Source: Sphingobium arseniciresistens (lineage in GTDB: Bacteria > Pseudomonadota > Alphaproteobacteria > Sphingomonadales > Sphingomonadaceae). Taken from it: a DNA stretch of 64,000 bases. A program made the position numbers and the translations under genes. Below, piece after piece: positions 30,032 to 48,510 of this stretch. Each line of letters starts with the position of its first letter. Within the stretch, counting starts at the first letter, position 1. Location of the stretch: the NCBI GenBank assembly GCA_029167225.1, contig JARFNK010000009.1:151022-215021 (forward strand). Reading direction: 5' to 3'. The notes below the pieces were generated by a model. It saw only the letters and a list, made by a program, of their open reading frames with translations. It was not told the origin of the DNA and ran no database searches.

Positions 30032-30682
30032 TCAGCCGATCCTGGCCAGGATATTTTCGGCTTCCGGGCGATCGAGCCAGTCGGGGCTGACCTGCAGCCA
30101 CTCCACCACCCGGCCGGCGCCGAGCAGCAGCACGGCGGGCTGCGGCAGTTCCCATCTGCCGGTGCCGGTCACGTCCCCGATCCAGCCGGCCGGCGGCGGC
30201 GAGGGGCGATCGTCAGGCACGAAGCTGATCCCCAGCGCGTGCGCCAGCCCGTTGTCCGGGTCGCTGGCGACGGTGAGGGCGAGGCCATGGCGATCCTTGA
30301 TGTCGCGCAGGCGATCGGGCCTCTGCGGGCTGACGGCCACCAGCGGGATGCCGCGATCGCGCAGCGCGGGATAAAGTGCCCGGTCATAATGCGGCAACGC
30401 GATGTTGCAGGCCGGACAGCCGGCGAAGCGGAAGAAGATGATGAGCGCCGGACCATTGGCGGTGAGCGTATCCAGGCTGAGACTGCCGCCCTCCACATCC
30501 TCCAGATCCAGCGGCGGCAGGACATCGCCCGGCTGCACCACGGCGAGCGGATCGAAACGATCGACCAGCAATTGCCGCTGGCGCGCATTGCCCGCCAGTT
30601 GCGCCGGAGACCAGCTCTGTTCCCGTTCCGCCTGAAGCGCTGCATAGCGTGCCTTGAGTGTATCCGCCGCGATTGTCGCCAT
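30032..30682 (-). CDS. Peroxiredoxin-like thioredoxin-fold protein (AhpC/TSA)
   Basis: A 216-residue cytoplasmic protein. After an N-terminal helical region (to about 60) it has a thioredoxin fold with FFRFAGCPACNIALPHYDR, i.e. a CPAC redox pair in place of the single peroxidatic Cys of typical peroxiredoxins, and VAVSPQRPDRLRDIK, typical of the AhpC/TSA branch. It could reduce peroxides or disulfides. An AGGAGA ribosome binding site stands six bases before ATG 30682. It lies at the downstream end of the sulfur island on the same strand, separated by a hairpin from the monooxygenase gene, so membership of that transcript is unsure. Confidence 0.82.
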   Translation of the reverse strand: MATIAADTLKARYAALQAEREQSWSPAQLAGNARQRQLLVDRFDPLAVVQPGDVLPPLDLEDVEGGSLSLDTLTANGPALIIFFRFAGCPACNIALPHYDRALYPALRDRGIPLVAVSPQRPDRLRDIKDRHGLALTVASDPDNGLAHALGISFVPDDRPSPPPAGWIGDVTGTGRWELPQPAVLLLGAGRVVEWLQVSPDWLDRPEAENILARIG

Positions 30683-30743
30683 TGTCTTCTCCTTGCCGCT
30701 GGGTGCCGCGTCCGCTTCCCATGTGGCCAACGGCCCAGCCCCG

Positions 30744-30761
30744 CGCCAACGAGTGTTGGCG
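30744..30761. other. Short inverted repeat between the monooxygenase and peroxiredoxin genes
   Basis: CGCCAAC and GTTGGCG pair perfectly around GAGT. It lies 36 bases past the stop of the gene at 30797-32146. There is no T-run, so a terminator role is only possible. Confidence 0.35.
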
Positions 30762-30796
30762 TGGGATGGACGATTAATGCTCATAGATGCGGGGTT

Positions 30797-32146
30797 TCAG
30801 GCGGCCGCGCGCCCACGCTGTGAGGGCAATCGGCGGTTGTCGGGGATCGCCAGGCCAAGGTTGCCGCGCAGCGTCGCTGCTTCATAGTCGCGCCGGAACA
30901 GCCCCCGTTCCTGAAGGATCGGGACGACTTCATGGACGAAGCGCGCGAACTGTTCGGGATGGCCGAGATGGACGTTGAGTCCGTCGAGCGCGCGCCCTTC
31001 GAACCAGCGTTCGATCTCGTCGGCGACGGTCTGCGCCGAGCCCACGAACGGACTGCCCCGCCCCGCCCGCTGGCGCTCCACCGCCTGACGCAGGCTCAAC
31101 CCCTCGGCAACCGCAAGATCGGTGATCCGCTTCGCCTGCGTGTAGAAGCTGTTCTTCGCATGGTCGAGCGCCTGCACCGGAAAGGGGGCGTCCACGTCAT
31201 ATTGCCGGAAATCATGCCAGCCAAAGGCGCGCCCGAATTCCGCCAGCGCCTGATCGAAGCTCTGGTCGAGGCGGCGATAGGCCTGTTCGATCTCCCTCGC
31301 CTGCGCGTCGGTATCGCCCACATAGACGGTGAAGCCGGGCAGGATGACGATCTGGTCGGGATCCCGGCCGAGCCGCGCCGCCCGTCCCTTCAGGTCGGCA
31401 TAGAAGGCCTGCCCCTGCTCGATCGTGGCGGCATGGGTGAAGATGGCGTCGGCGATGGTCGCGCCCAGATCGCGACCCTGATGGCTGTCGCCCGCCTGGA
31501 AGATCACCGGCTCGCCCTGCGGCGAACGCTGGATGTTGAGCGGCCCGACAACGGAGAAGAACTCGCCCTTGTGGTCGAGCCTGTGCAGCTTGTCGGGATC
31601 GAGGAACTGGCCGGTCGTCCGGTCGCGGACCAGCGCGCCATCCTCATAGGAGCGCCACAGGCCGCGCGTGACCTCCAGAAACTCCTCGGCCCGGCGATAG
31701 CGCGTGTCATAGTCGAAATGCGCGTCCTGGCTGAAATTGCCGGCCGTTCCCGCGTCGCCGCTGGTCACGACGTTCCAGCCCGCCCGCCCCTTGCTGATGA
31801 GGTCGAGCGAGGCAAGGCGGCGCGCAAGGTTGAAGGGATCGTTGTAGGAGGTGGTGAGCGTCCCCACGAGGCCGATATTCTGCGTCGCCACGGCCAGCGC
31901 CGAAAGCAGCGTCAGCGGCTCCAGCCGGTTGAGGTAATGCGGCGGCGAATGGGCTGTGATGAACTGGCTGTCGACGATGAAGACCAGATCGAACTTCGCC
32001 GCCTCGGCCTGCCGCACGACATCGACATACCAGTCGATGTTGACGCTGGCGTCGACCGGAATGTCGGTGTCCAGCCAGCGGTTGCTGTCGCCGGGGCCGC
32101 CGACGCCGGTGGGCACGAGGCCGAGTTTCAATTGGCGTTTGGTCAT
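30797..32146 (-). CDS. LLM-class flavin monooxygenase, NtaA/SnaA/DszA type
   Basis: A 449-residue FMNH2-dependent monooxygenase with the luciferase-like TIM barrel. NtaA/DszA features are the N-terminal LKLGLVPTGVGGPG, DIPVDASVNIDWYVDVVRQ, KFDLVFIVDSQ, SKGRAGWNVVTSGDAG and FQAGDSHQGRDLGA, with a C-terminal NVHLGHPEQFARFV. Relatives cleave C-N or C-S bonds of nitrilotriacetate, dibenzothiophene sulfone, methanesulfonate and other organosulfur compounds. Placement with sulfonate binding proteins and an SsuD-like enzyme favours an organosulfur substrate. It needs reduced flavin from a separate reductase, and none is visible in the window. AGGA precedes ATG 32146. Confidence 0.87.
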   Translation of the reverse strand: MTKRQLKLGLVPTGVGGPGDSNRWLDTDIPVDASVNIDWYVDVVRQAEAAKFDLVFIVDSQFITAHSPPHYLNRLEPLTLLSALAVATQNIGLVGTLTTSYNDPFNLARRLASLDLISKGRAGWNVVTSGDAGTAGNFSQDAHFDYDTRYRRAEEFLEVTRGLWRSYEDGALVRDRTTGQFLDPDKLHRLDHKGEFFSVVGPLNIQRSPQGEPVIFQAGDSHQGRDLGATIADAIFTHAATIEQGQAFYADLKGRAARLGRDPDQIVILPGFTVYVGDTDAQAREIEQAYRRLDQSFDQALAEFGRAFGWHDFRQYDVDAPFPVQALDHAKNSFYTQAKRITDLAVAEGLSLRQAVERQRAGRGSPFVGSAQTVADEIERWFEGRALDGLNVHLGHPEQFARFVHEVVPILQERGLFRRDYEAATLRGNLGLAIPDNRRLPSQRGRAAA

Positions 32147-32268: not shown

Positions 32269-33060
32269 TCAGGCGTCGAAGCCCGGCGCCTGGCGTTGCG
32301 CCTTGCGGAGCGCGGCTTCCCAGACGAGGTCGTAATGGGATTTGGCGCCCTCGCCCGGCTGGCGCTCACGCGACATCTGCCGGCGCACCTCCTCCTGCGC
32401 TTCCTCGGGCGCGATCAGCACATTCTCGCGGCCGATGCTGAGCGACCGCACCTGAGCGCTGCATGCCGCTTCCAGCTGATATATGCCGCTGAATGCCTCG
32501 CCCGGCGAAGCGCCCAGCGCCAGCGTGCCATGATTGCGCAGCAGCATCACCTTGGTATCGCCCAGGTCCGCTACCAGCCGCTCGCGCTCGTCGAGGTTCA
32601 GCGCCACGCCTTCATAGTCATGATAGGAAAGCCGGGGGATGAGGGCGAGCGCGCGCTGGTTGAGCGGCAGCAGCCCTTCGGCATGGGCGGAGACGGCCAT
32701 GCCGTCGGCGCTGTGGAAGTGCGCGATATAATGGGCATCGTCGCGCGCGCCGTGGATCGCGGAATGGATCACATAGCCGGCATAGTTGATGCCATAGTCG
32801 CTTTCGCCGATGACATTGCCGTCAAGATCGACCTTGACCAGGCTGGACGCGGTGATCTCGTCGAACATCAGGCCGAAGGGGTTGATGAGGAAATGATGGT
32901 CCGGCCCCGGCACGCGCGCCGAGATATGGGTGTAGATGAAATCGTCCCAGCCATAGAGCGCCGAAAGCCGATAGAAGGCGGCGAGATCGACACGGACCTT
33001 CCATTCCGCTTCGCTGATGCCCGGATGTTCGAACCGTGCGTCCTTCAGGATGGTCGCCAT
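32269..33060 (-). CDS. Class II aldolase/adducin family protein
   Basis: A 263-residue metal-dependent enzyme of the fuculose-aldolase/adducin fold. Recognisable segments are YGWDDFIYTHISARVP, INYAGYVIHSAIHGARDDAH, AHFHSADGMAVSAH (metal His) and LLRNHGTLALG. Family members cleave or decarboxylate phosphorylated sugars, but many unphosphorylated examples accompany catabolic clusters and their substrates are unknown. Within the sulfur island it could split a carbon skeleton left after desulfurisation; this is speculation. AAGGAG lies eight bases before ATG 33060. Confidence 0.86.
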   Translation of the reverse strand: MATILKDARFEHPGISEAEWKVRVDLAAFYRLSALYGWDDFIYTHISARVPGPDHHFLINPFGLMFDEITASSLVKVDLDGNVIGESDYGINYAGYVIHSAIHGARDDAHYIAHFHSADGMAVSAHAEGLLPLNQRALALIPRLSYHDYEGVALNLDERERLVADLGDTKVMLLRNHGTLALGASPGEAFSGIYQLEAACSAQVRSLSIGRENVLIAPEEAQEEVRRQMSRERQPGEGAKSHYDLVWEAALRKAQRQAPGFDA

Positions 33061-33141: not shown

Positions 33142-34119
33142 TCATGCAGGCAGGATGCCCGGATCGACCAGCGCGGCGACATCCACCCGGCGGGGCAGTT
33201 CGCCATCGGCATGGAAGCGATCGACAACATGCTGGAGCGGGCCGGTGATCGCGGCGTCGGCCGGCACCAGCAGCGGGTTCTGCCGCTCCACGATGGCTGC
33301 ACCCAGCGCCGGATCGACGCCGGTGCGGGCGACGAACAGCTTGGCATAGGCGGCGGGATGGGCGCGTGCCCATTCGCTGGCCTTGCGCTGGCGAGCCATG
33401 ATGTCGCGCAGCGCCGCACGCTTGGCCGGATCGTCGAGCGCGGCCTGCGAGGCGGCGATCAGGGTGAAGCCCGTGTTGATCCCCTGCCCGTCGCGCAGCA
33501 CCCGCGCGCCGCGCCGCTCCGCCGCCAGCTGATAGGTGCCGAAGGTCGCCCATGCCTCGATGCGGCCCGCGGCAAAGGCTGCCGCCGCATCATTGGGCAG
33601 CATGAAGCCGATATCGACATCCTTGCGATCGACCTTCGCCTCCTTCAGCGCCTCCAGCAGCAGATAATGGGAAATGCTGCCCCGCGCGCTGGAGACGATG
33701 ACGCGCTTGCCACGCAGCGCCACAACCGACCTGATCGGCGAGCCGGGCGGCACGATGATGCCGATGTCGCGGGTGGAGGAGACCCCCGCCGCGATGATCT
33801 TCAGCGGCACCCCGGCGGACGCGGCGAGCACCACCGGCAGGTCGCCCGCCGGCGCGGTATCGACCGCGCGGGCGTTGAGTGCCTCCAGCAGGGGGGCGGC
33901 ACCGACGAAGTTCGCCCATTCGATGTCGTAGGGCAGATCCCTGAGCGCTCCCGCGGCCTCCGACTTTGCCTGCATCAGATGAACCTGATCGCCAAGGACG
34001 ATCTTTGTCCGCCCACCCTTCCCCGCACCGCAAGCCGTCAGGCCCAGGGCGGCGATGCCGGCCGCGCCAAGGCCGGCGAGCACGCTCCTGCGGTCAGAAA
34101 TCAAGTGCGATCCGTCCAT
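33142..34119 (-). CDS. ABC transporter substrate-binding lipoprotein, sulfonate/nitrate/taurine type
   Basis: A 325-residue periplasmic binding protein of the SsuA/TauA/NrtA superfamily. The N-terminus has a twin Arg (SDRRSVLAGLGAAGIAALG) running into a lipobox LTACG, so it may be Tat-exported and lipidated. The body shows DLPYDIEWANFVGAAPLLEA, GSPIRSVVALRGKRVIV and SARGSISHYLLLEALK, as in sulfonate binders. Its start lies within the last 26 bases of the upstream receptor gene, pointing to coupled expression with that TonB receptor. No permease or ATPase adjoins it; the pair at 40802-42399 is the nearest. Substrate unknown. Confidence 0.87.
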   Translation of the reverse strand: MDGSHLISDRRSVLAGLGAAGIAALGLTACGAGKGGRTKIVLGDQVHLMQAKSEAAGALRDLPYDIEWANFVGAAPLLEALNARAVDTAPAGDLPVVLAASAGVPLKIIAAGVSSTRDIGIIVPPGSPIRSVVALRGKRVIVSSARGSISHYLLLEALKEAKVDRKDVDIGFMLPNDAAAAFAAGRIEAWATFGTYQLAAERRGARVLRDGQGINTGFTLIAASQAALDDPAKRAALRDIMARQRKASEWARAHPAAYAKLFVARTGVDPALGAAIVERQNPLLVPADAAITGPLQHVVDRFHADGELPRRVDVAALVDPGILPA

Positions 34120-36691
34120 AATAATAGCCGCCTGCAGGGTTGAAGGGCGAGGGACCATAATAGCCCTGCCCCGTCTGGGGATTGCCCGGCCCGTTGGTTT
34201 CGGGCCGCACGTCGAAGATGTTGGTGGCGCCGAAAGACAGGGTCGCGAAGCGCGTGACCTTCGCGCTGACATTGGCGTCGGTGATCCACTTGGCGCCGAA
34301 ATAGCGATCGTCGCCCGCCGCCGTGCGCTGGGTATATTTGCCATAGCGGCTCGTGGTCAGGTTGAGGCCGAAAATGCCCTTGGTCCAGTTGAGCGAGCCG
34401 ACCAGCTTGGTATGGGGCTGCAGCACTTCCAGCTCGCCCTGCTTGTCGCCGCCGAAGAAGACCGACCCCGCGCCCAGCAGCGAAGCGCCATTGGCGCCGA
34501 ACAGTTGCGACGGGGTATCGACCAGATCGGTGATGTGCGTCTTGCTGTAGTTGAAGGCGAGCGTCAGCCCCAGCTTGCCCAGATCGCCGATGCGCGTCGA
34601 ATAATCGGCAACGAGGTCGAAGCCCTTGGTGGTCGTGTCCACCGCGTTGATGAAATATTCGGCCTGCTCGATGTCGGACAGGCCATTGGCCGACAGGATC
34701 GCCGAGATGCCGGGGCCGAACAGGCGGCCGGTGCGGGCGATGCGGTTCTTGATGCGGATATAATAGCCATCGAGCGTGATCGACAGGCCATCGATCGGCG
34801 TGGCGACGATGCCGAGGCCCGCATTCAGGCTCTTTTCCGCCTTCAGGGGCTTGGCGCCGAGGAGCTGGCCAACCGTGGAGTCCGCCGTCACCAGCTTGGC
34901 GACGGTGGGCCGCAATTCCGTCTGGCCGGTTTCGGGGTTGAAGAAGGAGGAGGTGCGCCCGTCCGTCTGGGCATAGCCGATCTGGGTGAGCGAAGGCGCG
35001 CGAAAGCCGGTGCCGATGGTACCGCGCACAGCCAGGCCCGGCGACAATTCATAGCGGCTGTTGAACTTGAAGCTCACCGGGCTGCCCGACCCGTCGCTAT
35101 AATGTTCGGCGCGCGCGGCGAGGCCGACATACCATTGGTCGAGCGGATAGAGGCCAAGGTCGACATAGCCGGCATAGACCTTGCGGCTGATGTCCGCCAC
35201 GTCCGCCGGCGACAGCACGATGGCGCCCTGCACCACCGGCGAGGCGATGCGGCCAACATTCCAGTCATATTGCTGGTCGCCCGGCTGGAACACATAGCTT
35301 GCCGGCTCATAGGCGAGCGGATCGCCCGCGAAGGTGCGGAAGCGGTCGAGCCGGTATTCGCCGCCCACCGACAGCTGCACCGGGCGGGCAAGGCCGATGT
35401 CGAACTCGCGCGTCAGGTCGACATTATGGGTCCATTGGCGAAATTCGAAGCTGGCGAGGTTGGGCCATTCCGTCGGGCTGTCCGGCCCGAGCGAGGGGCG
35501 GATCGACAGGTCGGAATATTGATGGCTGTAGTTGCGGCCGAACGACGAGCTGATGTCATAGTTCCAGCCCGCCAGCGTGCCCTTCAGCCCGCCGACGATC
35601 TGGAAATCATTCTCGTCGATATTGTTGAGCGGATAATAGCCATCCGGGAAGAGCGCGGTGAAATTGGCGGTGCTGTTGGGGCGGCGGAAATTATTGCCGA
35701 TCACCGCCTTGCGCTCGCCATAGGTGCCGAAGGAATAGAGGGTGGCGTTCTGTATCACCGGCAGTTCGGCATTATAGGTGAGGTTGAACGCCTTGATCTG
35801 CGGATCGCCATTATGCGCGCCATCCAGGTTCCATTGCGCGTTGCGGGCGTTCGCGGCGGCGACATTGGCCAGCACCTGATCGCGCGTCAGGCCGCTCGTC
35901 GCGACGACCTGATCAACGGTTCGGCCAGCGGGAAGCCCATAGAGGTTGGTGTCGGTCGACGGCAGGTTCCACCAGGCGCCGCCACGCTTGCGCACGTCGC
36001 CGCTGACGGTCAGGAAGCCGCCGTCGTCGCCGATGCGGGTGCCATAATGCAGGTTCGCCTTCCAGCTGTCCGGATTGCCATTGGCTTCGTAGAGCGTACC
36101 GTAGGTGAAATCGCCACCCAGCCCTTCCTTCTGGCTCAGCTGGACGTTGATGACCCCCGCGACCGCATCGGTGCCATATTGGGCGGCGGCGGAATCCTTG
36201 AGCACCTCGATCCGCTCGATCGAACTGGTGGGGATGAGGTCGAGATCGACCGGGTTGACGCCCGAACTATCGGTCGTGCTGTTGTTGAGGAACGCCGCAT
36301 TGTGCCGCCGCTTTCCGTTGACCAGCACCAGCGTATAGGCCGGGCCGAGGCCGCGATTGGTGACGGGGCGGCCGATGGAAAAGACGCCCGCATGGGTCGC
36401 GCCGAAATTGAGCGAGGGAAGCAGCTTGGAAAGCGCCTCGCCGAACTCCGCGGCGCCCGTGCCCTGCAGTTTCTCCGCGCCGACCACGTCGATCGGTGCC
36501 GGGCTCTCGGCCACCGTGCGCGGCGCGCCGCGAACCCCGGTGACGATGATCGCGCCGGCGTCCGCCAGGTTATCCGCAGCAGCCTCGGCCGGCTGGCTTG
36601 CGGTCTGCGCGAAGGCCGGAGCAGCGCCCAGAGCCAACGAAAAAGCAACAACCCGCAATGAAACAGAAGAGAGTGAATTCTTAATTCGCAT
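34094..36691 (-). CDS. TonB-dependent outer-membrane receptor
   Basis: About 865 residues. A signal peptide (residues 1-28, FSLALGAAPAFA before QTAS) is followed by the plug domain: a TonB-box-like GAIIVTGVR, then SPAPIDVVGAEKLQG, TLVLVNGKRRHNAAF, IERIEVLKDSAAAQYGTDAV and AGVINVQL. A 22-strand barrel ends in GRIALDF with terminal Phe. Such receptors import large or scarce substrates using proton-motive force. Lying between sulfonate-type binding proteins it probably brings in the organosulfur compound rather than iron. Start: ATG 36691 with GGGGG upstream gives a clean signal peptide; an upstream Met 12 codons earlier does not. The 130 bases before it are unusually AT-rich and should hold the promoter. 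Confidence 0.93.
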   Translation of the reverse strand: MRIKNSLSSVSLRVVAFSLALGAAPAFAQTASQPAEAAADNLADAGAIIVTGVRGAPRTVAESPAPIDVVGAEKLQGTGAAEFGEALSKLLPSLNFGATHAGVFSIGRPVTNRGLGPAYTLVLVNGKRRHNAAFLNNSTTDSSGVNPVDLDLIPTSSIERIEVLKDSAAAQYGTDAVAGVINVQLSQKEGLGGDFTYGTLYEANGNPDSWKANLHYGTRIGDDGGFLTVSGDVRKRGGAWWNLPSTDTNLYGLPAGRTVDQVVATSGLTRDQVLANVAAANARNAQWNLDGAHNGDPQIKAFNLTYNAELPVIQNATLYSFGTYGERKAVIGNNFRRPNSTANFTALFPDGYYPLNNIDENDFQIVGGLKGTLAGWNYDISSSFGRNYSHQYSDLSIRPSLGPDSPTEWPNLASFEFRQWTHNVDLTREFDIGLARPVQLSVGGEYRLDRFRTFAGDPLAYEPASYVFQPGDQQYDWNVGRIASPVVQGAIVLSPADVADISRKVYAGYVDLGLYPLDQWYVGLAARAEHYSDGSGSPVSFKFNSRYELSPGLAVRGTIGTGFRAPSLTQIGYAQTDGRTSSFFNPETGQTELRPTVAKLVTADSTVGQLLGAKPLKAEKSLNAGLGIVATPIDGLSITLDGYYIRIKNRIARTGRLFGPGISAILSANGLSDIEQAEYFINAVDTTTKGFDLVADYSTRIGDLGKLGLTLAFNYSKTHITDLVDTPSQLFGANGASLLGAGSVFFGGDKQGELEVLQPHTKLVGSLNWTKGIFGLNLTTSRYGKYTQRTAAGDDRYFGAKWITDANVSAKVTRFATLSFGATNIFDVRPETNGPGNPQTGQGYYGPSPFNPAGGYYYGRIALDF

Positions 36692-36821: not shown

Positions 36822-37775
36822 CTATTTTACAAAACTTGTATCAAATGCATCCTTGACCGCTCGTTCCGATTGGATCAGTCCGGCATTCTGGAAGCGCGCA
36901 GTGATATCCTGTTCATGCGCCAGGATATTGCCGTCGATCGACCGCGAGATGCGGTTGTTGCGATCGAAGCTGGCACGGGCGATGTCGAGCGGCAGCCCCG
37001 TTTCCTTGGCAAGTACCTGCGCGAACTGGTCGGGGTGCGCCCGTGCCCAGGCGACGGCCTTCGCTTCCCGCGCGAGGAAATCCTGAAGCAGCGCGCGCCG
37101 GGGCTCGATCGAATCCGCATTGGCGATGTCGATATAGATCGGCAGGCCATAATCCTTCGCATCGACGACAGGCCGCGCACCCTCCTTGATCGCGACATTG
37201 GTATAGGGTGTCCATGTCGACCAGGCGTCGATCGCGCCGCTGTCGAACGCTGCCTTCGCGTCGCCCGGCGGCAGGAAGGTCACGCGTACCCTGTCGGCGG
37301 GGATCTTCGCCCGCTCCAGCGCCTGCAACAGCAGATGATGGCCGATCGAGCCGCGCGTGGTGGCGACGGACTTGCCGACCAGATCGTCCACCGAGCGGAT
37401 CGGCGAGCCCGACTTGACCAGCACGGCCAGCGCCTCTGGCGCCTGGTTGACCGGCGCCTGCACCGCAATCGCCTTGACCGGGCTGCCGCTTTGATAGGCG
37501 AAGATGAACGGCGCGTCGGCGGCAAGGCCAAGGTCAGCCGCGCCGCTGCCGACCGCTTCGAGCAGCGGCTGGGCAGATGGGAACTCGGACCACTCGACCG
37601 TATAGGGCGCGCCTTCCAGCGCGCCGGAGGCGAGCATCATCGCCTTGACCTGCCCTTTCTGGTTGGCGACGCGCAGCACATTGTCCGCGCCCTTACGAAA
37701 TTGGGTGGCGGCCACTGCAATGCCCGCCACCACCACAACCGCCACGCCCGCAAGGGCGACCGTCCGTTTCGCCAT
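36822..37775 (-). CDS. Aliphatic sulfonate ABC transporter substrate-binding protein
   Basis: A 317-residue SsuA-like binding protein with an N-terminal membrane anchor or uncleaved signal (TVALAGVAVVVVAGIAVAA). Sulfonate-family segments are VEWSEFPSAQPLLEAVGSG, DLGLAADAPFIFAYQSGSPV, KSGSPIRSVDDLVGKSVATT and RGSIGHHLLLQALERA. It is the last gene of the leftward row ssuC-ssuB-thiol dioxygenase-rhodanese-monooxygenase, one base after the monooxygenase stop. It is therefore the natural partner of the permease and ATPase at 40802-42399, despite being five genes away. Sulfonates are the likely ligand class. Confidence 0.9.
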   Translation of the reverse strand: MAKRTVALAGVAVVVVAGIAVAATQFRKGADNVLRVANQKGQVKAMMLASGALEGAPYTVEWSEFPSAQPLLEAVGSGAADLGLAADAPFIFAYQSGSPVKAIAVQAPVNQAPEALAVLVKSGSPIRSVDDLVGKSVATTRGSIGHHLLLQALERAKIPADRVRVTFLPPGDAKAAFDSGAIDAWSTWTPYTNVAIKEGARPVVDAKDYGLPIYIDIANADSIEPRRALLQDFLAREAKAVAWARAHPDQFAQVLAKETGLPLDIARASFDRNNRISRSIDGNILAHEQDITARFQNAGLIQSERAVKDAFDTSFVK

Positions 37776-40805: not shown

Positions 40806-41578
40806 TCGGCTGCCTCGACCAGGACCGGCTGCTCTTCGCCATACAGGTCGCCGCCCAGATAGGAGAGCAGCTTGGCACGCAGTCGCGACGACAGGCCGCC
40901 ACGCTGGCCGCGCTCGGCCGTGATCCGTTCTTCCGCGACGATCCGGCCACCGTCGAGCACCAGCACGCGGTCGGCGAGCGCGATCGCTTCCTCCACGTCG
41001 TGCGTGACCATCAGCACCGCAGGGCGATGCGTGCGCCAGAGCGAAAGCACGAGATCGTGCATGCGGTAGCGGGTCAGCGCATCGAGGGCCGCAAAGGGTT
41101 CGTCGAGCAGCAGCAGTTCCGGCTCTCGGACCAACGCACGGGCAAGTGCGGCGCGCTGCGCCTCGCCACCTGACAGCGTCAGCGGCCAGGCATCGATGCG
41201 ATGGCCGAGGCCCACTTCGCGCAGGGCATTTTCGCTGCGTTCGCGGATCGAATCGCCCTTGAGCCCCAGCGCCACATTCTTCCACACCGGCTTCCAGGGG
41301 AGCAGGCGCGCATCCTGAAACACGACGGCGCGGGAGCCGGGGACGGTCACATCCTGGCCGCGCACTTCGTCGAGCCCCGCCAGCGTGCGCAGCAAGGTCG
41401 TCTTGCCCGATCCCGAACGGCCCAGCAGGGCGACGAACTCGCCGGGGGCGATGTCCAGATCGAGCCCATCGATGATGGTGTTGGCGCCGAAGCGACGGGA
41501 GAAATCACGTAGGCGAACGACAGGCGCGGGTTCAGAACGGAAGGTTTCCACGGCGGAAAAGCCAAGACGTGCGTCCAT
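40802..41578 (-). CDS. ssuB: Sulfonate-type ABC transporter ATP-binding protein
   Basis: A 258-residue ATPase of the SsuB/TauB/NrtD group. Walker A GRSGSGKTT, Q-loop VVFQDARLLPW, signature LSGGEAQRAALARAL, Walker B LLLLDEPFAALD and switch His VTHDVEEA are all intact. It powers the permease encoded two bases upstream. Start ATG 41578 (MDARLGFSAVE); longer in-frame starts reach into the permease gene and are unlikely. The stop overlaps the thiol dioxygenase start. Confidence 0.94.
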   Translation of the reverse strand: MDARLGFSAVETFRSEPAPVVRLRDFSRRFGANTIIDGLDLDIAPGEFVALLGRSGSGKTTLLRTLAGLDEVRGQDVTVPGSRAVVFQDARLLPWKPVWKNVALGLKGDSIRERSENALREVGLGHRIDAWPLTLSGGEAQRAALARALVREPELLLLDEPFAALDALTRYRMHDLVLSLWRTHRPAVLMVTHDVEEAIALADRVLVLDGGRIVAEERITAERGQRGGLSSRLRAKLLSYLGGDLYGEEQPVLVEAAE

Positions 41579-41580: not shown

Positions 41581-42399
41581 TCACTGCTCCACTATGCTGG
41601 GGCGCCAGACGAGGGCGCGATTTTCGATGGCACGGACCGCCCAGTCGGCAAGCAGGCCGAGGATGGCGTAGACCATCAGGCACACGACGATGATGTCGGT
41701 CCGCATGAAGTCGCGGGCGTTGTTGATGAGATAGCCAAGGCCTGCCGAGGCGTTGATCTGTTCGGCGACGACGAGCACGAGGATCGAGACCGACAGCGAA
41801 TAGCGCAGCCCCACCAGCAACGCGGGAAGCGCCGCGGGCAGGACGACATGCCAGATCTGCTCCGTGCGGCTGAGACCGAAGCTGCGAGCGGCCTCGAGCA
41901 GGCGCGGGTCGACGCTGCGAATGCCGCTGTATAGGTTGAGATAGACCGGGAAGATGGTGCCGAAGGCGATCAGCGCGATCTTCGGCGTCTCACCGATACC
42001 AAACCAGACGATGAAGAGCGGCGTGAGCGCCAGCGCGGGAATCGTCCGCTTGATCTGCATGAGGGGATCGACCGCCAGTTCGCCCGACCGGGAAAGCCCC
42101 GCGACCAGACCGAGCACGATCCCCAGGCCCACTCCGAGGGTCAGGCCGACGGCCACGCGACCGAAGGAGACCAGCAGGTTGGAGGGCAGCTCGCCTGAAA
42201 GGGTCATTTCCAGCAGCGTGCCCAGCACTGCCGAGGGCGCTGCCAGGGTGCGCTCCGGGATCAGGCCGACCCGCGATCCCAGCTCCCAGAGCAGGAGCAG
42301 CAGGACCGGCGAAAGCCAGCGCCCGCCGAAGGTGGAAAGCGAGAATGAACGGGGCGAAATGCCGCCGCCCTTTTGCCCGCCAATGGATAATGCCGCCAT
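41581..42399 (-). CDS. ssuC: Sulfonate-type ABC transporter permease
   Basis: A 272-residue inner-membrane permease of the BPD_transp_1 family with about six helices. The cytoplasmic EAA loop reads EAARSFGLSRTEQIWHVVLP, and TLGVGLGIVLGLVAGLS and LRYSLSVSILVLVVAEQ are helices as in SsuC. It is the first gene of the leftward transcript ssuC-ssuB-dioxygenase-rhodanese-ssuD-binding protein. The promoter should lie in 42400-42688, where an ACTCA/TGAGT dyad is found, opposite the LysR gene. Confidence 0.92.
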   Translation of the reverse strand: MAALSIGGQKGGGISPRSFSLSTFGGRWLSPVLLLLLWELGSRVGLIPERTLAAPSAVLGTLLEMTLSGELPSNLLVSFGRVAVGLTLGVGLGIVLGLVAGLSRSGELAVDPLMQIKRTIPALALTPLFIVWFGIGETPKIALIAFGTIFPVYLNLYSGIRSVDPRLLEAARSFGLSRTEQIWHVVLPAALPALLVGLRYSLSVSILVLVVAEQINASAGLGYLINNARDFMRTDIIVVCLMVYAILGLLADWAVRAIENRALVWRPSIVEQ

Positions 42400-42442: not shown

Positions 42443-42460
42443 TCTACTCATTCAATTGAG
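42443..42460. promoter_or_regulatory. Motif shared by two promoters of the sulfur island, copy 1
   Basis: TCTACTCATTCAATTGAG lies 44 bases before the ssuC start, between ssuC and the LysR gene. It includes ACTCA...TGAGT arms (42446-42450 and 42457-42461). Fifteen of 18 positions recur at 47092-47109 in the second divergent promoter of the island. It is probably the binding site of one common regulator, most simply the LysR protein at 42689. The rest of the 289-base interval 42400-42688 shows no gene. Confidence 0.55.
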
Positions 42461-42688
42461 TGTTAGGTTGCGCTCCTATTAGGAAAACTCATAGCCAGCG
42501 ATCCATCGCGCCAGATGCCCCATTTGTCGGCCTTTTGTGGGACATTCACGGCCAGCGCTGCCGGGAGATAGCTTTTCCTTGCCGTACTAAATCTCTACTA
42601 TTTTGATTGATATATAAGCATCAGCGATATGCCTCGGGCTCCGCTCCCGACCACGGGCCGGCCTGTCCATGTTCAAAAGGGGGCGCTC

Positions 42689-43525
42689 GTGCCGGTCAAT
42701 CTTCCCACCAACCTGCTCCGCAGCTTTGTCGCCATCGTCGATACAGGGTCGATGCTGAATGCGTCCGAGCAGGTGTTCGTCACCCAATCCGCCCTCAGCC
42801 TCCAGATCAAGCGCCTGGAGGAATTGGTACAGCAGACATTGTTCCTGCGCGAAGGCCGGCGGCTGATCCTGACGGCGGCGGGCAATGTCCTGCTCGACTA
42901 TGCCCGGCGCGTGCTCAACCTGCATGACGAAGCGGTCGCGGCGGTCAGCGCCGGGCGCTTCGCTGGGCCGGCGCGCATTGGCATGGTGCAGGATTTCGCC
43001 GATACATTGCTGAGCGGCCTGCTCTCCCGCTTTGCCGAACTGCACCCGGACGCCCAGATTTACGCGCGAGTCGCGGGCACCGCCGAATTGCAGGCGCTGC
43101 TCGACCGGCGCGAACTCGACATCCTGCTGGGCTTTGCCGCGCCCAGCGACGCGAACGCCGTGACCGTGGCACCGATGAGCTGGTATGGCGAAGGCGCGCT
43201 GCTCGACCGGCCGGTCATTCCGCTCGCCGTCCTTGAAGAACCATGCCGTTTCCGCGAAGCCGCGATCCGTAGCCTGGATGACGCTGGCCTGGGCTGGCGC
43301 ATCGCGGTGGAAACGCCCAATCTCGCGACGCTGAAGGCCGCCGTTTCCGCTGGCCTTGGCATTACCTGCCGCACGCATCTGTTCCTGGGCGAGGATGCGG
43401 GGCTGGAAGACGAACGGCTGCCGTCGCTGCCCCGCGTCGCGGCGATCCTGCGCAGCGCCGACCAGCTCGACCGCGCGGCTCAGCGGCTGGCCGAACTGGC
43501 CCGCGAGACTGTGGCGGTGCTCTGA
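42689..43525 (+). CDS. LysR-family transcriptional regulator of the sulfur genes
   Basis: About 278 residues. The N-terminal helix-turn-helix is clear (LLRSFVAIVDTGSMLNASEQ, then VFVTQSALSLQIKRLEELVQ), followed by the effector-binding domain (ARIGMVQDFADTLLSGLLSR; ELDILLGFA). It is shorter than CysB-type regulators at the C-terminus. Start: a GTG at 42689 with AGGGGG six bases before it puts the helix-turn-helix at the usual place; the ATG at 42629 would add 20 residues but has no ribosome binding site. It is divergent from ssuC and so a likely regulator of it. Confidence 0.87.
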   Translation: MPVNLPTNLLRSFVAIVDTGSMLNASEQVFVTQSALSLQIKRLEELVQQTLFLREGRRLILTAAGNVLLDYARRVLNLHDEAVAAVSAGRFAGPARIGMVQDFADTLLSGLLSRFAELHPDAQIYARVAGTAELQALLDRRELDILLGFAAPSDANAVTVAPMSWYGEGALLDRPVIPLAVLEEPCRFREAAIRSLDDAGLGWRIAVETPNLATLKAAVSAGLGITCRTHLFLGEDAGLEDERLPSLPRVAAILRSADQLDRAAQRLAELARETVAVL

Positions 43526-43782: not shown

Positions 43783-44727
43783 TCAATAACCCCGCGTAGG
43801 ATCGACGATGTCGCTCGGTGCTTCGCCGCGGGCAAAGCGGGACAGGTCGTCCGTCACCTTGTCCAGCAGGCGATGGCGCACCAGCGTATAATTGCTCGAG
43901 ATGTGCGGGGTCAGCCGGACCCTGGGATGGGTATAGAGCGGGTGTCCTTCGGGCAGAGGCTCGGGATCGGTCACGTCGAGCGTGGCGAAACCCAGCCGGC
44001 CATCGTCGAGCGCCCGCACCAGCGCCTCCTGATCGACCACCGATCCCCGCGCGACATTGATGAGATGCGCGCCGGGCCGGACATGCGCGAGCAGTTCGTC
44101 ATTCACCAGATGGCGCGTCTGGGGCGTGGCCGGCAGCGCGACCACGATATGATCCGCCTCTGCCACCAGCTGTTTCACGTCCGCGACAAGCTGGATCTCC
44201 GGAATTCTCGCTCCGGCGCTGGATCGGCGCACGCCGATCACCTGAGCCCCCAGCGCCACGGCACGGCGGCCGACGGCCGTGCCGATCGCGCCTAGGCCGA
44301 TGATCCCGATCGTGGTGCCCGAGACCCGGCCGAGCGGCCTTTGGACCCACTCCGCGCGCGAACGAGCGGTCACGGCTTCCAGATTCTTGGCATGGGCGTA
44401 GATCGCGGCGACGACATAGTCCGCGATCTCCTCCGACGCCACGCCGCGCCCGCAGGTAACGAGCGGCGCGTCCAGCAGCCAGGAAGGATAGAAATCGACA
44501 CCCGCCGATGCGCTGTAGACCCATTTCAGGCGGCCCGGCCAGCCTGATGGCCGCATGTCGGGCGGCCGCCGCCAGGCCGGCGACGGACGCACGAGCAGCA
44601 CATCGGCCTCGCTCGCCGCGCTCCATGGCTCATTCTCCGACACGTCGATGATGACCGGGCGAGAGGGATGCTGGGCAAGGCTGTGGTTAAAGTCCGCCTC
44701 AAGCTGGCTGGCAATGACAAGCGACAT
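43783..44727 (-). CDS. D-isomer-specific 2-hydroxyacid dehydrogenase
   Basis: A 314-residue NAD(P)-dependent dehydrogenase. The nucleotide fold has GIIGLGAIGTAVGRRAVALG. The catalytic residues are in NVARGSVVDQEAL (Arg), DVTDPEPLPEGHPLY (Glu) and LTPHISSN (His). It reduces a 2-keto acid or oxidises a D-2-hydroxy acid; the substrate cannot be named. It follows the DszC-like gene by five bases in the second leftward transcript of the island, so it may process the carbon part of a desulfurised compound, for example an oxidised lactate-like product. Confidence 0.88.
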   Translation of the reverse strand: MSLVIASQLEADFNHSLAQHPSRPVIIDVSENEPWSAASEADVLLVRPSPAWRRPPDMRPSGWPGRLKWVYSASAGVDFYPSWLLDAPLVTCGRGVASEEIADYVVAAIYAHAKNLEAVTARSRAEWVQRPLGRVSGTTIGIIGLGAIGTAVGRRAVALGAQVIGVRRSSAGARIPEIQLVADVKQLVAEADHIVVALPATPQTRHLVNDELLAHVRPGAHLINVARGSVVDQEALVRALDDGRLGFATLDVTDPEPLPEGHPLYTHPRVRLTPHISSNYTLVRHRLLDKVTDDLSRFARGEAPSDIVDPTRGY

Positions 44728-44732: not shown

Positions 44733-45926
44733 TCAGTTCCCCAGGCCCGCGCGGCCCGCCGCGATCAGGATCGTATCGGTCTGTGGCGAATGGATGCGGC
44801 TGCACAGCACGTCGCGATAATGGCGTTCCAGCGGGTTCTTGCGGCTGATCCCCGGATTGCCCGTGAGTTCAAGGCCGATCTCCACCGCGCGGATCGCGTT
44901 GGCGGTGACGACATGCTTCACATTGTTGACCTCTACCGCGCCGAGGCGGTCGCCCGCGTCGCTGCGCGCGGCGCTCGCCTCTATCAGGGTGCGGTTCACC
45001 TGCAGTAGCGCCTCGATCTCGCCGAACTTCTCCTGCACGCGCGGCAGCGTCGCCAGCGATGCGCCGAGGTTGCTCGGCACCCGGTCGTTCAGATAGGCGC
45101 GCAGCCAGTCGCGCGCGGCGCGGGCTACGCCATTGTAGATCGTCGAGATCGCCAGCGCATTCCAGATCGCCTGCGAGGGATCGGCCGCAGCCAGAGACCA
45201 ATCTTCCGGCCGGCGAATGTCGACCGCATGGTCGAGCGGCACCGGCGTATCGGAAAAATGCACTGCATGGCTGACGGTCGCGCGCATGCCCAGATGATCC
45301 CAGGCCGGCTCGATCGTGATCCCCGGACTGTCCGAGCGCACGAGGAAATTGCCCACGCGGGGGTTTTCCTCGTCGGTCCTGGCCCAGACCGCGAACCAGT
45401 CGAGCCCGGTCGATCCGGTCGAATAGATCTTGGTGCCGCTGAGCACCCAGCCGTCTGGGGTCTGTCGCGCGGTCGTCGCGGGCAGGCCGCCACGCACCGG
45501 CGTCCCCAGTTCCGGCTCGCCCCGCAGGCCGCCGATCAGCCCCCGGCCTTCCACTGCATCGCGGGCGACGCGCTCATAGATGCCCTTGGGCCAGCTGCGC
45601 GTCTTGGCCGGTGCGGCATGATAGGCATAGGTCATGAACAGGATGAGCGCGGTGGATGGCTCGCCCTTGGCGACGGCGCCCAGCACGCGCAGCGCCTGCG
45701 ACAGCGAGGCGCCAGCACCGCCAAGCTCTGGCGCGACCGTCAGCCCGATTAGCCCCTCGCGCGCCAACAGGTCGAAATTCGCCTGCGGAAATTCGGCGCT
45801 GCGGTCATATTGCTCGGCGGTGGCGGCCAGCGAGCGGGTGATCTGGTCCAGCAACTCGGCGGACGGGATCGCGGTCGTCGCCGCAGGCCGCTCTATCGCA
45901 TCGGCATTGGCCCATTGCGTTGCCAT
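44733..45926 (-). CDS. Acyl-CoA-dehydrogenase-fold flavoprotein, SfnB/DszC-like
   Basis: A 397-residue flavoprotein with the acyl-CoA dehydrogenase fold: GLIGLTVAPELGGAGASLSQ, a flavin segment around LSGTKIYSTGSTGLDWFAVW, and the C-terminal HYRDVLCSRIHSPQTDTILI. The last motif matches DszC/SfnB-type proteins, whose C-terminus lacks the usual catalytic Glu and which act as FMNH2-dependent oxygenases or in sulfur scavenging. With a sulfonate binding protein on one side, a sulfur role is the best reading. GGAGGA precedes ATG 45926. Ordinary acyl-CoA dehydrogenase activity is less likely but not excluded. Confidence 0.83.
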   Translation of the reverse strand: MATQWANADAIERPAATTAIPSAELLDQITRSLAATAEQYDRSAEFPQANFDLLAREGLIGLTVAPELGGAGASLSQALRVLGAVAKGEPSTALILFMTYAYHAAPAKTRSWPKGIYERVARDAVEGRGLIGGLRGEPELGTPVRGGLPATTARQTPDGWVLSGTKIYSTGSTGLDWFAVWARTDEENPRVGNFLVRSDSPGITIEPAWDHLGMRATVSHAVHFSDTPVPLDHAVDIRRPEDWSLAAADPSQAIWNALAISTIYNGVARAARDWLRAYLNDRVPSNLGASLATLPRVQEKFGEIEALLQVNRTLIEASAARSDAGDRLGAVEVNNVKHVVTANAIRAVEIGLELTGNPGISRKNPLERHYRDVLCSRIHSPQTDTILIAAGRAGLGN

Positions 45927-45930: not shown

Positions 45931-46908
45931 TTATCCTCCCTTGCGGATGAGATCGTTGAAACGGGTATCCCATAGCGGACGCACATCGACCGCGTGCGGC
46001 AGCAGCCCCGCCTTCTCGAACACGCGCGCCACCTCCTGCTGGGATGCGATCGCGGCTTCGGTCACGGGACGGATTTCATAGTCGGCGCTGCGGCGGCGGA
46101 ACTGGTCCAGCACATATTCCTTGGGCACGCCGATGTCGGTCGCGATCAGGCCGGCCCAGGCATTGCTGTTCGCGGCCGCCCAGCGATACCCCTTCTGCAC
46201 CAGCCCCAGATATTCGCCGATGATCCTGGCCTTTTCGGGATCGGCAAGCGAATCGACATGGGCGGCAACAAGGTAGTTGCCCGACAATATGCCATTGGCG
46301 GTAAGCAGGATGCGTGCGCCCTCCGTCGCGATCGCGCGCTGGATGGGGAAGCCGTAGATCGCCCAGGCATCGAGCGCGCCCTGCGAGAATGCGGCCGCGC
46401 CATCGGACACGCCCATGGCGACAGGCGTGATGTCGTCCCAGTTGAGCCCGGCATCCTCCAGCATGCGGATGAGGAAATATTGCGTCGTGGTCGCGCGCAC
46501 ATAGCCGACGCGCTTGCCCTTGAGCTCGGCGATCGATCGCGCCCGCGATCCCTTGGGCACCAGCACGACCTGATTGTTCACGTCGCCATGCGCCACCGCG
46601 ATCTGGCGAAAACTCTGGATGGTCGATGCCGCAGCGAAGATCGGCGGAATTTCGCTCATGCCGCCATAGTCGAGCGACCCGCCGTTCAGCGCCTCCACGA
46701 CCAGATGACCGGACGCGAAGTCGCTATACTGGACATCATACCCCTGCGGCGCGAGGCCAGCCGCCTTGAACAGAAGGCGGGTATTGCTCTCCCCCTTGCC
46801 CGTCACCGACACGCGCAGGCTGGGCTTGCCGCCCTTCCCCGTGGAGCATCCGGCCAGAACCAGGCAGGACATCGCCGCCGAACCCACAAAGGCGCGCCGG
46901 GAGAGCAT
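45931..46908 (-). CDS. ABC transporter substrate-binding lipoprotein, SsuA/TauA-like
   Basis: A 325-residue periplasmic binding protein. The N-terminus MLSRRAFVGSAAMSCLVLAGC has adjacent Arg residues, a hydrophobic core and a lipobox ending in Cys. Family segments: SDFASGHLVVEALNGGSLDY, GGMSEIPPIFAAASTIQSFR, SIAELKGKRVGYVRATTTQY, QGALDAWAIYGFPIQRAIA. It resembles sulfonate binders but differs from the two others in the window, so it may serve a different ligand. It is preceded directly by a 49-codon ORF and followed four bases on by the DszC-like gene. No permease adjoins it. Confidence 0.87.
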   Translation of the reverse strand: MLSRRAFVGSAAMSCLVLAGCSTGKGGKPSLRVSVTGKGESNTRLLFKAAGLAPQGYDVQYSDFASGHLVVEALNGGSLDYGGMSEIPPIFAAASTIQSFRQIAVAHGDVNNQVVLVPKGSRARSIAELKGKRVGYVRATTTQYFLIRMLEDAGLNWDDITPVAMGVSDGAAAFSQGALDAWAIYGFPIQRAIATEGARILLTANGILSGNYLVAAHVDSLADPEKARIIGEYLGLVQKGYRWAAANSNAWAGLIATDIGVPKEYVLDQFRRRSADYEIRPVTEAAIASQQEVARVFEKAGLLPHAVDVRPLWDTRFNDLIRKGG

Positions 46909-47058
46909 TCAGCGCGAGCCGGCCACTTCGCGTCCGGGCAGATCGTCCATGTCGGGCCGGCGCTCGAACAGGAGCACATTGGGGTCGCGCAGGAATTCGC
47001 GCTTCATCGCGTCACGCAGCCGGGCCAGCCGGATTGCGCTGCATTTCAACCAGATCAT
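46909..47058 (-). CDS. Small ORF (49 codons) preceding the binding-protein gene
   Basis: This reading frame starts at ATG 47058 with AAAGGG about six bases before it and ends with TGA exactly one base ahead of the next ATG, so the two genes abut without a gap. The product is basic and contains MKREFLRDPNVLLFERRPDM and DLPGREVAGSR, with one Cys and no signal peptide or membrane helix. It is not recognised. It could be a real small protein or a leader whose translation sets expression of the transporter gene. Confidence 0.55.
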   Translation of the reverse strand: MIWLKCSAIRLARLRDAMKREFLRDPNVLLFERRPDMDDLPGREVAGSR

Positions 47059-47091
47059 GAACGGCCCTTTCGGAGATGACAGGGCTATTTA

Positions 47092-47109
47092 TCTATTCAT
47101 TCAGTGGAG
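47092..47109. promoter_or_regulatory. Motif shared by two promoters of the sulfur island, copy 2
   Basis: TCTATTCATTCAGTGGAG lies 34 bases before the small ORF and 49 bases before the divergent FAD-protein gene. It matches the site at 42443-42460 at 15 of 18 positions. Its position suits control of either or both divergent transcripts. Confidence 0.5.
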
Positions 47110-47157
47110 ATATGTCTGTCAAGCAATGCTGTCCGACTCATTAGAAATGCTTGACCC

Positions 47158-48510
47158 TTGCTGATCGCCCGCCACGCTGCGATCATTGGCGGGGGATTCA
47201 GCGGCACCCTGCTCGCCATCAACCTGCTGCGGCACGGATCGCTGAACGTCACCCTGATAGAGCGCGATCCCCAGCAATTGGCGAAGGGACTGGCGTTCGG
47301 CGCGGCACATGCCGGCCACGTGCTCAATGTCCGCGCCGCCAATATGAGCGCCTTTCCCGACCAGCCGGGCCATTTCGTCGCATGGCTCAAGGCGCGGGGC
47401 ATCGGCTCGGACATCAGTTTCGCGACCCGGCGCGACTATGGCCTCTATCTGAGTGGCCTGCTGGATGCGGCGCGACAAGAGACCGGAGATCGGCTGACGA
47501 TCCTGTCCGATTCGGTCACCTGCGTCGCGGAAGGGGATGAAGGCGCGCGGCTGACGCTGGCTTCGGGCGGCACGCTGATGGCCGACATGGTCGCGCTGGC
47601 ACCGGGGAACCTGCCGCCGCACGATCTCCCAGCGTTCAGGGGATTGTCCACTCCCGCCTATGTCAGCGATCCCTGGGCGAGCGACCTGGCGCAGGGCCTC
47701 ACCGACAGGGATCATGTGTTGCTGCTCGGCAGCGGCCTGACCGCCATCGACTGTGCGCTCTCGCTGGACGGTGCCGGCTTTCGCGGGCGGATCATCGCCA
47801 TGTCGCGCCGCGGCCTCTCGCCCCATCACCATGCGCCGGGCAGCGCCGTGGGGCCGCTCGCGACGCGCCCGCCGATTGCAGGTTCGGCGCTGGTACAGGC
47901 GGTGCGGGCACGCGCGGAGGCGATCGGCTGGCGCAACGCGGTCGACGAATTGCGCCCCTTCACCCAGAGCATGTGGGCCGCCGCCAGTCAGGACGAGCGC
48001 TCCCGCTTCCTGCGGCACCTGCGCCCCTTCTGGGATGTCCATCGCCACCGGATCGCCTCACAGGTCGCCGAACGGCTCGACGGCATGAAGGCCCAGGGCC
48101 GGCTGAACGTGGTGGCGGGCAAGGTGAGTGGCGCGAGCGCCGACAACGCGGGACTACGGGTCGCTTGGCGCCGCCGGGGCGAGGATGTCGTGGAAGAACA
48201 GCGCTTCGCCCGCGTCATCAATTGCACCGGGCCGCTTGGCGACCTTGCCCGCACGCGCGATCCACTGCTCATGCGCTTGCAGGATGACGGGCTGATCCGC
48301 CCGGACGCGCTGAGCATCGGCATCGACGTGGACATGGCCGGACGCGCCGTGCGGCAGGATGGCAAAGCGTGCGGGCATCTGTACGTGGTCGGCCCGATGA
48401 CGCGCGGCGCCCATTGGGAAATCGTCGCCGTGCCGGACATCCGCAAACAGGTCTGGTCGCTCGCCCGCGCCGTGACAGGGGCGCACTGGGTCGAAGCCGA
48501 AGGGCTCTGA
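47158..48510 (+). CDS. FAD/NAD(P)-binding oxidoreductase-like protein, TTG start
   Basis: A 450-residue flavoprotein of the NAD_binding_9 type. The FAD fold is at the very N-terminus (AAIIGGGFSGTLLAINLLRH), followed by LAFGAAHAGHVLNVRAANMS, a second dinucleotide motif LLLGSGLTAIDCALSL and NCTGPLGDLARTRDPLL near the C-terminus. Proteins of this group are found with transport and siderophore clusters and their reactions are mostly unknown. Start: an in-frame stop at 47152 leaves only TTG 47158 (or the next CTG) to include the FAD motif, so translation from TTG is inferred. It is divergent from the third binding-protein transcript and shares its promoter region. Confidence 0.85.
   Translation: MLIARHAAIIGGGFSGTLLAINLLRHGSLNVTLIERDPQQLAKGLAFGAAHAGHVLNVRAANMSAFPDQPGHFVAWLKARGIGSDISFATRRDYGLYLSGLLDAARQETGDRLTILSDSVTCVAEGDEGARLTLASGGTLMADMVALAPGNLPPHDLPAFRGLSTPAYVSDPWASDLAQGLTDRDHVLLLGSGLTAIDCALSLDGAGFRGRIIAMSRRGLSPHHHAPGSAVGPLATRPPIAGSALVQAVRARAEAIGWRNAVDELRPFTQSMWAAASQDERSRFLRHLRPFWDVHRHRIASQVAERLDGMKAQGRLNVVAGKVSGASADNAGLRVAWRRRGEDVVEEQRFARVINCTGPLGDLARTRDPLLMRLQDDGLIRPDALSIGIDVDMAGRAVRQDGKACGHLYVVGPMTRGAHWEIVAVPDIRKQVWSLARAVTGAHWVEAEGL

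Follow-up and report, generated by a model that had tools for sequence, protein, structure and literature searches.

Introduction

3-Mercaptopropionate dioxygenase (Mdo) has long been studied and has been crystallised. In Pseudomonas protegens CHA0, as in the PA2602-PA2603 pair, its gene is followed by tst; the two genes, 3mdo-tst, are reported to form one transcription unit, and 3-mercaptopropionate is reported to build up in a 3mdo mutant (PMC12947264). Here we analyse a gene island built around such a pair in Sphingobium arseniciresistens (Sphingomonadaceae; assembly GCA_029167225.1, contig JARFNK010000009.1, positions 151,022 to 215,021), located at about 30 to 48.5 kb of this whole stretch of 64,000 nucleotides, which we call the window. 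The order mdo then tst is the same as in P. protegens, whereas the window pair sits inside a run of ssuCB that also carries genes for oxygenases and a TonB receptor. Its tst encodes three rhodanese domains, while the solved protein 1yt8, which we take to be PA2603, has a fourth.

Other described systems share parts with the island. The msuEDC/sfnG genes and the dimethyl sulfide (DMS) pathway of Acinetobacter baylyi likewise combine group D and group C flavin monooxygenases and end in sulfite, the group D enzymes of A. baylyi being reported to convert DMS into dimethyl sulfoxide (DMSO) and dimethyl sulfone (DMSO2) before an SfnG-type group C enzyme cleaves the C-S bond (PMC13352529). The window differs by its other oxygenase subfamilies, a lost sulfonate motif, an extra thiol dioxygenase and the fact that no reductase gene was seen. 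In the S-alkylcysteine salvage of Bacillus subtilis, CmoO is reported to oxygenate and CmoJ to cleave the substrate, likewise a sulfoxidation followed by a flavin-dependent C-S cleavage (PMC10863075). Unlike this system, the window shows no N-acetyltransferase or deacetylase, and import would go through SsuABC and TonB. The NtaA-type oxygenase of the window is nearest to YtnJ/MoxC, YtnJ being presumably CmoJ. In Advenella, Mdo is described as followed by coenzyme A (CoA) transfer and a CoA desulfinase (PMC5373536). The Mdo-CoA transferase-Acd cluster of Advenella and the msdo-rhodanese-ATP-binding cassette (ABC) cluster share with the window a thiol dioxygenase, a LysR regulator and, for the msdo cluster, a rhodanese, whereas the island contains neither CoA transferase nor desulfinase, and the Msdo structure scores 28 bits against the window Mdo. 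To our knowledge, the fate of the sulfinate produced by Mdo is not settled outside bacteria with a CoA desulfinase. Finally, plasmid clusters of Sphingobium sp. TomTYG65, Comamonadaceae OTU4NAUVB1, Klebsiella pneumoniae (pCMC432M_P3) and Azospirillum thermophilum each carry mdo, tst, SsuA-type ABC genes and an SsuD-like or luciferase-like monooxygenase (LLM) gene, some with group D, aldolase or TonB genes, but the order and number of their parts differ from the window.

A previous reading of the window made from its sequence alone (the sequence-only reading) knew of no described pathway with this combination of genes. The open-licence literature searched covers the mdo-tst pair and individual regulated genes, so that this view does not hold for the pair, described in P. 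protegens (PMC12947264); it stands for the full combination, which was not found there as a described pathway, without implying its absence from print. In the same literature, no paper was found on the Klebsiella clusters, and searches on PA2594-PA2601 and on thioethers together with mercaptopropionate led nowhere. The known part of the island is mdo together with a rhodanese resembling tst, its partner in the P. protegens unit. As detailed below, the island is an evolutionarily conserved gene set that probably takes sulfur out of small organic molecules, and it includes two oxygenases of a type that has been little studied; that it works as a single co-regulated scavenging route, from a thioether or thiol to sulfite, falls just short of an even chance in our estimation.

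The island is conserved around mdo-tst

A search of genome contigs for tst gave at least 591 confirmed stretches, of which the best 80 were kept; a second set comprises 40 loci from further genomes. Together they make 120 loci; the two sets partly overlap, with at least two pairs (L045/L151 and L080/L160) each coming from a single contig, judging by its length. Partner genes were counted within 10 kb of tst using bit-score thresholds, some loci being cut by contig ends. In the 80-locus set, mdo was found in 39 loci, accompanied by ssuC and ssuB (35 each), the SsuD-like gene (34), lysR (32), tonB (26), the ntaA-type gene (24), the group D gene (22), the dehydrogenase (20), the aldolase (17) and the NAD_binding_9 flavin adenine dinucleotide (FAD) protein (16). 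In the other 41 loci (L058-L097 and L099), tst stands alone, with neither mdo nor any further island gene reaching the thresholds used; these loci are not independent because 38 of them come from Bradyrhizobium. In the 40-locus set, 32 loci contain mdo, and these include the SsuD-like gene in 17, the group D gene in 12 and any SsuA-like gene in 19; among the eight loci lacking mdo, the SsuD-like gene was found in one and the group D gene in one. The island core recurs in Sphingobium, Novosphingobium and Sphingomonas, and the island families also surround mdo-tst in beta- and gammaproteobacteria. By contrast, six genes that lie on either side of or next to the island in the window were present in none of the 120 loci (threshold of >150 bits within 10 kb), indicating that the island set travels as a unit.

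We then looked at the distribution of the two oxygenases from the opposite direction. The tst gene was detected in 11 of 249 genomes of the family and, across the phylum, in 39 of the 398 genomes sampled; as only a few first-look candidates were scored in each of the 398 genomes, misses are possible. A reverse search from the group D protein (E up to 1e-40) retrieved 20 of the 398 genomes, 17 of them with tst, and one started with the SsuD-like clade (E at most 1e-70) retrieved 26, 24 of them with tst (Fisher p 1.6e-16 and 3.8e-26, respectively, shared ancestry being ignored). Both oxygenases occur together in 19 of the 20 group D genomes, with starts at most 2.6 kb apart in 13 and at most 12 kb apart in 17. 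The distance to tst is at most 20 kb for the group D gene in 13 of 17 genomes and for the SsuD-like gene in 15 of 24. When 40 of the 49 tst genomes were considered, a set that overlaps the reverse-search set and leaves out nine genomes of one genus (g107), the group D gene was present in 15, and in 14, counted by eye, it lies no more than 20 kb from tst; among the nine g107 genomes, which the reverse-search counts include, four have it, unlinked to tst in three. On these sequence comparisons, the group D and SsuD-like genes are a conserved pair associated with tst, which is new here. The sequence-only reading had proposed one functional set of organosulfur type, and the recurrence in many genera supports this proposal; the idea that the parts came together only by chance in one strain is rejected, both by the core recurring across genera and by the linkage in reverse searches.

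The same data were considered in the light of several independent cassettes, each made of a binding protein and an oxygenase, that would use a common pump and regulator without sharing a pathway. In Sphingomonadaceae, SsuA1 adjoins the group D gene at each of 18 places, SsuA2 is beside the SsuD-like gene in 27 of 41 and beside the NtaA type in 12 of 41, and blocks are gained or lost from locus to locus, all as expected for cassettes. However, the binding proteins change partners outside this family, and the association of both oxygenases in 19 of 20 genomes is tight for independence, making independent cassettes unlikely, even if they remain the most serious competitor of the single scavenging route.

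On two plasmids, Paracoccus yeei pYEE2 (L247) and Pararhizobium gei p3 (L248), a group D gene precedes an LLM oxygenase gene, SsuA/SsuC/SsuB-type genes and CopC/CopD- or YcnI-like genes, after which comes a second LLM block.

The SsuD-like oxygenase has lost the sulfonate motif

The SsuD-like gene (37,777..38,880; all coordinates are window positions on the minus strand unless stated otherwise) encodes a group C flavin monooxygenase that belongs to a clade of its own. The names SsuD and SfnG were rejected by curated cut-offs, as the protein scores 227.8 bits with TIGR03565 (SsuD/MsuD, cut-off 518.2) and 144 bits with TIGR04021 (SfnG, cut-off 383). SsuD-type sequences were aligned after removal of 13 of 97 matches that were fragments or scored at most 140 bits. 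In all 76 rows of the SsuD-like clade, R225 of MsuD is replaced by Ser and H227 by Arg, R296 is gone (Thr in 53) and Phe stands at 330; His replaces N104 in 74 rows, and W195 is retained in 71. The clade thus does not carry the full sulfonate motif (W195, R225, R296, A/S299) of the SsuD/MsuD alkanesulfonate monooxygenases. R225, H227 and R296 are all retained in the 8 paralogues of the SsuD/MsuD clade and, by eye, the corresponding positions are kept in the distant sulfonatase 7olf, while SfnG has N/F/N at 225/227/296 in 5 of 5 rows. In a tree, the clade separates from 10 SsuD/MsuD and 5 SfnG rows with a support of 99/98, the tool giving a warning of long branches. The AlphaFold model (predicted local distance difference test, pLDDT, 85.7) has MsuD 7k64 as best match with template modelling (TM) scores of 0.78/0.84; as the model has the MsuD fold, the change sits in the active site and not in the fold. 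The R225A, R296A and W195A variants of MsuD are reported to give no measurable sulfite (PMC8234197). Since the clade lacks R225 and R296, needed by MsuD for sulfonate, the term desulfonase is doubtful. The sequence-only reading had listed the SsuD-like enzyme under C-S bond cleavage; its cleavage of sulfonates is doubtful.

This result bears directly on a ladder of the Msu type, in which Mdo would oxidise a thiol to a sulfinate, the group D protein would take the role of MsuC and produce a sulfonate, and the SsuD-like enzyme would take the role of MsuD and produce an aldehyde and sulfite. The pairing of group D and group C enzymes resembles MsuC/MsuD as reported (PMC13352529, PMC8234197), the gene order group D-mdo-tst with 4 bp overlaps in Comamonadaceae OTU4NAUVB1 is consistent with such a ladder, and it would account for the missing CoA desulfinase. 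Nevertheless, two residues essential in MsuD, R225 and R296, are lost in 76 of 76 rows although the more distant 7olf appears to retain them, and the group D protein has only 46 bits to MsuC 6u76. The ladder is thus weakened by the motif test, and we consider it improbable. Because the sulfonate motif is lost, sulfoxidation followed by C-S cleavage is preferred over desulfonation for the scavenging route.

Relatives of the SsuD-like protein outside Pseudomonadota are found on plasmids of Embleya (H87, 53% identical) and Nostoc (H102, 50% identical), and the Klebsiella plasmid has an SsuD-like gene in a stretch without a listed gene. Ser/Arg in place of Arg/His at MsuD positions 225/227 can serve as a subfamily marker for proteins labelled alkanesulfonate monooxygenase or LLM oxidoreductase.

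The group D flavoprotein and the CoA desulfinase

The partner of the SsuD-like gene (44,733..45,926) encodes a flavoprotein of group D type according to family and structure-relative searches; its model has a pLDDT of 83. It had been called DszC/SfnB-like; family matches place it in the acyl-CoA-dehydrogenase fold, but the names were rejected, the protein being far below the cut-offs of TIGR04022 (SfnB, 100.6 versus 430.9 bits) and NF043015 (DszC, 51 versus 850 bits). The name desulfinase was rejected in the same way (NF042439, 3-sulfinopropanoyl-CoA desulfinase, 101 versus 600 bits), and the protein is over no curated NCBIfam cut-off. Its nearest solved relatives are 5gj7/5z8t (184 bits). At the position where we assume the C-terminal catalytic Glu of acyl-CoA dehydrogenases to lie, none was present among the residues shown for 44 sequences, the reference CaiA, a poor one, also lacking the usual motif.

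A CoA desulfinase (NF042439) over cut-off was found in only 2 of the 40 tst genomes of the set without g107 and not in that of S. arseniciresistens. With E up to 1e-80, the model matched in 26 of the 40 (24 only below cut-off), again not in S. arseniciresistens. A CoA desulfinase route after Mdo thus seems unavailable. It is very improbable that the island serves to catabolise 3-mercaptopropionate or mercaptosuccinate for carbon or to detoxify them, in the manner of Advenella and Variovorax, in place of sulfur scavenging, for although mdo and msdo clusters with LysR, and with a rhodanese for msdo, are described there (PMC5373536) and 3-mercaptopropionate accumulates in the 3mdo mutant (PMC12947264), those clusters contain either a CoA transferase with a desulfinase or an ABC transporter of amino-acid type, the desulfinase is over cut-off in so few tst genomes, and the island is dominated by SsuABC-type transport and flavin mononucleotide (FMN) oxygenases.

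Mdo and the triple rhodanese

The window mdo (40,182..40,805) has a Pfam CDO_I score of 21.3 bits, just below the cut-off of 23, and no NCBIfam match in the profile scan. Its scores with solved Mdo structures are 238-260 bits (4qma 260; 3uss, which we take to be PA2602, 242), versus 28 bits for Msdo and 23 bits for Cdo. At what we take to be the motif positions, the three iron-binding histidines, the Gln in place of Arg and the Ser-His-Tyr are retained in 73 of 73 rows, in agreement with the Gln-type thiol dioxygenase read previously. By sequence, the window dioxygenase is a member of the 3-mercaptopropionate dioxygenase family, and not a Cdo or Msdo.

The tst gene (38,923..40,185; 523 bits to 1yt8) encodes 420 residues with three rhodanese domains, compared to 539 residues and one further domain for 1yt8, a thiosulfate sulfurtransferase whose C-terminal tail it retains. 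The CAGRTR active-site Cys loop of domain 2 is present in 140 of 140 rows; in domains 1 and 3 of the window protein, the equivalent loops have no Cys.

A shared LysR-box-like site

The divergent LysR-type regulator (42,629..43,525, plus strand; Pfam HTH_1 and LysR_substrate) and ssuC are separated by a region in which dyad and motif scans revealed two LysR-box-like sites, one near ssuC (42,443..42,458) and one near lysR (42,594..42,609). Two separate copies of the dyad (consensus a.cTcAATtgAA.taGTAGAgatt) are found in 23 of 29 LysR-ssuC intergenic regions, and one in most others. A matrix was built from these intergenic sites alone, and the background was rescanned with the true sites masked. 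A site upstream of ssuA1 was then detected in 11 of 18 loci, with p 0.0007-0.0053 against the masked background, in which one masked stretch still scores 33.6, more than any ssuA1 site. The top three scores of the window fall on the two intergenic sites and on the site upstream of ssuA1 (47,092..47,107). The exact pattern has three occurrences in the 6.6-Mb genome, all in the island, a result that is partly circular because the pattern was built from the three sites then found. The presence of the dyad before both leftward runs of genes suggests one regulator for both.

In P. aeruginosa, mutation of PA2504 is reported to lower PA2594 and PA2598 along with sulfur genes (PMC8466066), and PA2594 is reported to increase in an iron-mobilisation mutant with a proteome resembling that of sulfur-starved cells (PMC7760384). 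By locus number, PA2594 and PA2598 are near PA2602/PA2603.

A possible route from thioethers or thiols to sulfite

From these data we infer the substrates of the island, the order of its steps, sulfite as end product and control by sulfur starvation. The TonB receptor and the three binding proteins would pass small, negatively charged organosulfur compounds on to a single SsuBC pump that they have in common. Sulfoxidation of a carboxylated thioether by the group D enzyme and C-S cleavage by the SsuD-like enzyme may then provide a thiol, 3-mercaptopropionate or similar, that Mdo would oxidise to a sulfinate. Sulfite would be released from the sulfinate and used by CysI; the known CoA desulfinase is missing for this step. 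Tst may transfer sulfane sulfur, and the YtnJ-like enzyme, possibly assisted by the AhpC-like protein, could give access to a second class of thioethers.

Several observations weigh against a single route. In P. protegens, deletion of tst is reported not to change 3-mercaptopropionate significantly (PMC12947264), and the main text of a P. aeruginosa sulfur-starvation paper names no PA259x/PA26xx gene (PMC12581299). In 7 of 18 loci, the matrix gave no site ahead of ssuA1 (best p 0.025), and family profile scans detected no flavin reductase among the island genes. In 15 of the 32 mdo-tst loci of the 40-locus set, the SsuD-like gene is absent within 10 kb, and Sodalis is also without the pair. 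The distribution of tst is patchy, one of five sampled genomes of the genus having it, namely S. arseniciresistens; tst is unlinked to the group D gene in 4 of 17 genomes and to the SsuD-like gene in 9 of 24. The Paracoccus and Pararhizobium plasmids have the oxygenase pair with no mdo-tst annotated in the stretch shown. Outside sphingomonads, the enzymes paired with the binding proteins vary, and the AhpC-like gene adjoins the NtaA type in only 12 of the 36 loci having it.

We tentatively propose, with less confidence than for the single route itself, a widespread and undescribed salvage in which a new pair of flavin monooxygenases, one of group D and one SsuD-derived with a rewired active site, together with mdo-tst, would convert carboxylated thioethers or thiols to sulfite with no need of a CoA-dependent desulfinase; in sphingomonads, a single LysR regulator would control it. 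The conserved neighbourhood supplies concrete candidate enzymes for the steps around 3-mercaptopropionate dioxygenase, testable in soil and plant-associated bacteria.

Layout and other genes of the island

Translations and family profile scans show that the island genes are intact open frames of the kinds read previously, namely a TonB receptor, three SsuA-like proteins, one SsuBC, three oxygenases, a thiol dioxygenase, a triple rhodanese, an aldolase and a dehydrogenase. The two leftward runs with divergent LysR and FAD genes are also found once starts are re-set. The first, from 46,908 to 43,783, contains ssuA1, the group D gene and the dehydrogenase; the second, from 42,399 to 30,032, contains ssuC, ssuB, mdo, tst, the SsuD-like gene, ssuA2, tonB, ssuA3, the aldolase, the ntaA-type gene and the ahpC-like gene, with 4 bp overlaps at ssuB/mdo and mdo/tst.

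The SsuC-like permease (41,581..42,399; PRK11365, 234 bits, cut-off 347) and the SsuB-like ATPase (40,802..41,578; PRK11247, 229 bits, cut-off 395) are below their family cut-offs. With TIGR01728 (cut-off 163.5), SsuA1 (45,931..46,908) scores 156 bits, SsuA3 (33,142..34,119) 136 bits and SsuA2 (36,822..37,775) 183 bits, over the cut-off, with 137 bits to 2x26. SsuA2 has a weak 24-bit match to DszB, but a cytoplasmic DszB-like desulfinase role was rejected because all three proteins begin with an export signal, of lipoprotein type for SsuA1 and SsuA3, as judged by eye. The TonB-dependent outer membrane receptor (34,094..36,691) has the Pfam plug and barrel.

The monooxygenase of the NtaA/DmoA family, FMN-dependent (30,797..32,146), belongs to TIGR03860 (496.7 bits, cut-off 279.7). 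It had been read as NtaA/DszA-like: the NtaA type holds, and the nearest solved relative is YtnJ/MoxC (1yw1/6ask, 402 bits), DszA/BdsA being farther (240 bits). Next to it are a class II aldolase/adducin family gene (32,269..33,060; PRK07044, 357 bits, cut-off 207) and an AhpC/TSA (peroxiredoxin-like) gene (30,032..30,682; Pfam AhpC-TSA, 55.5 bits; start re-set by the ribosome binding site), which is part of the same strand run. The remaining genes are a D-2-hydroxyacid dehydrogenase (43,783..44,727; Pfam 2-Hacid_dh_C, 175 bits) and, on the plus strand, an FAD-NAD(P)-binding protein (47,158..48,510; Pfam NAD_binding_9, 111 bits), a looser member of the island.

Beside the island, on the other strand (27,989-29,954), lie a Rieske oxygenase of the VanA type and a GntR regulator of the FCD type, which are kept in none of the 120 loci. 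The cys genes expected at 12-16 kb are present at 12.2-16.4 kb, as cysH, cysI-like and CysG/CobA-type genes assigned by reading translations. In the Sphingobium TomTYG65 locus, a gene annotated taurine dioxygenase (L233, 15,563-16,429) lies downstream of ssuA2, so the island may exchange oxygenase cassettes.

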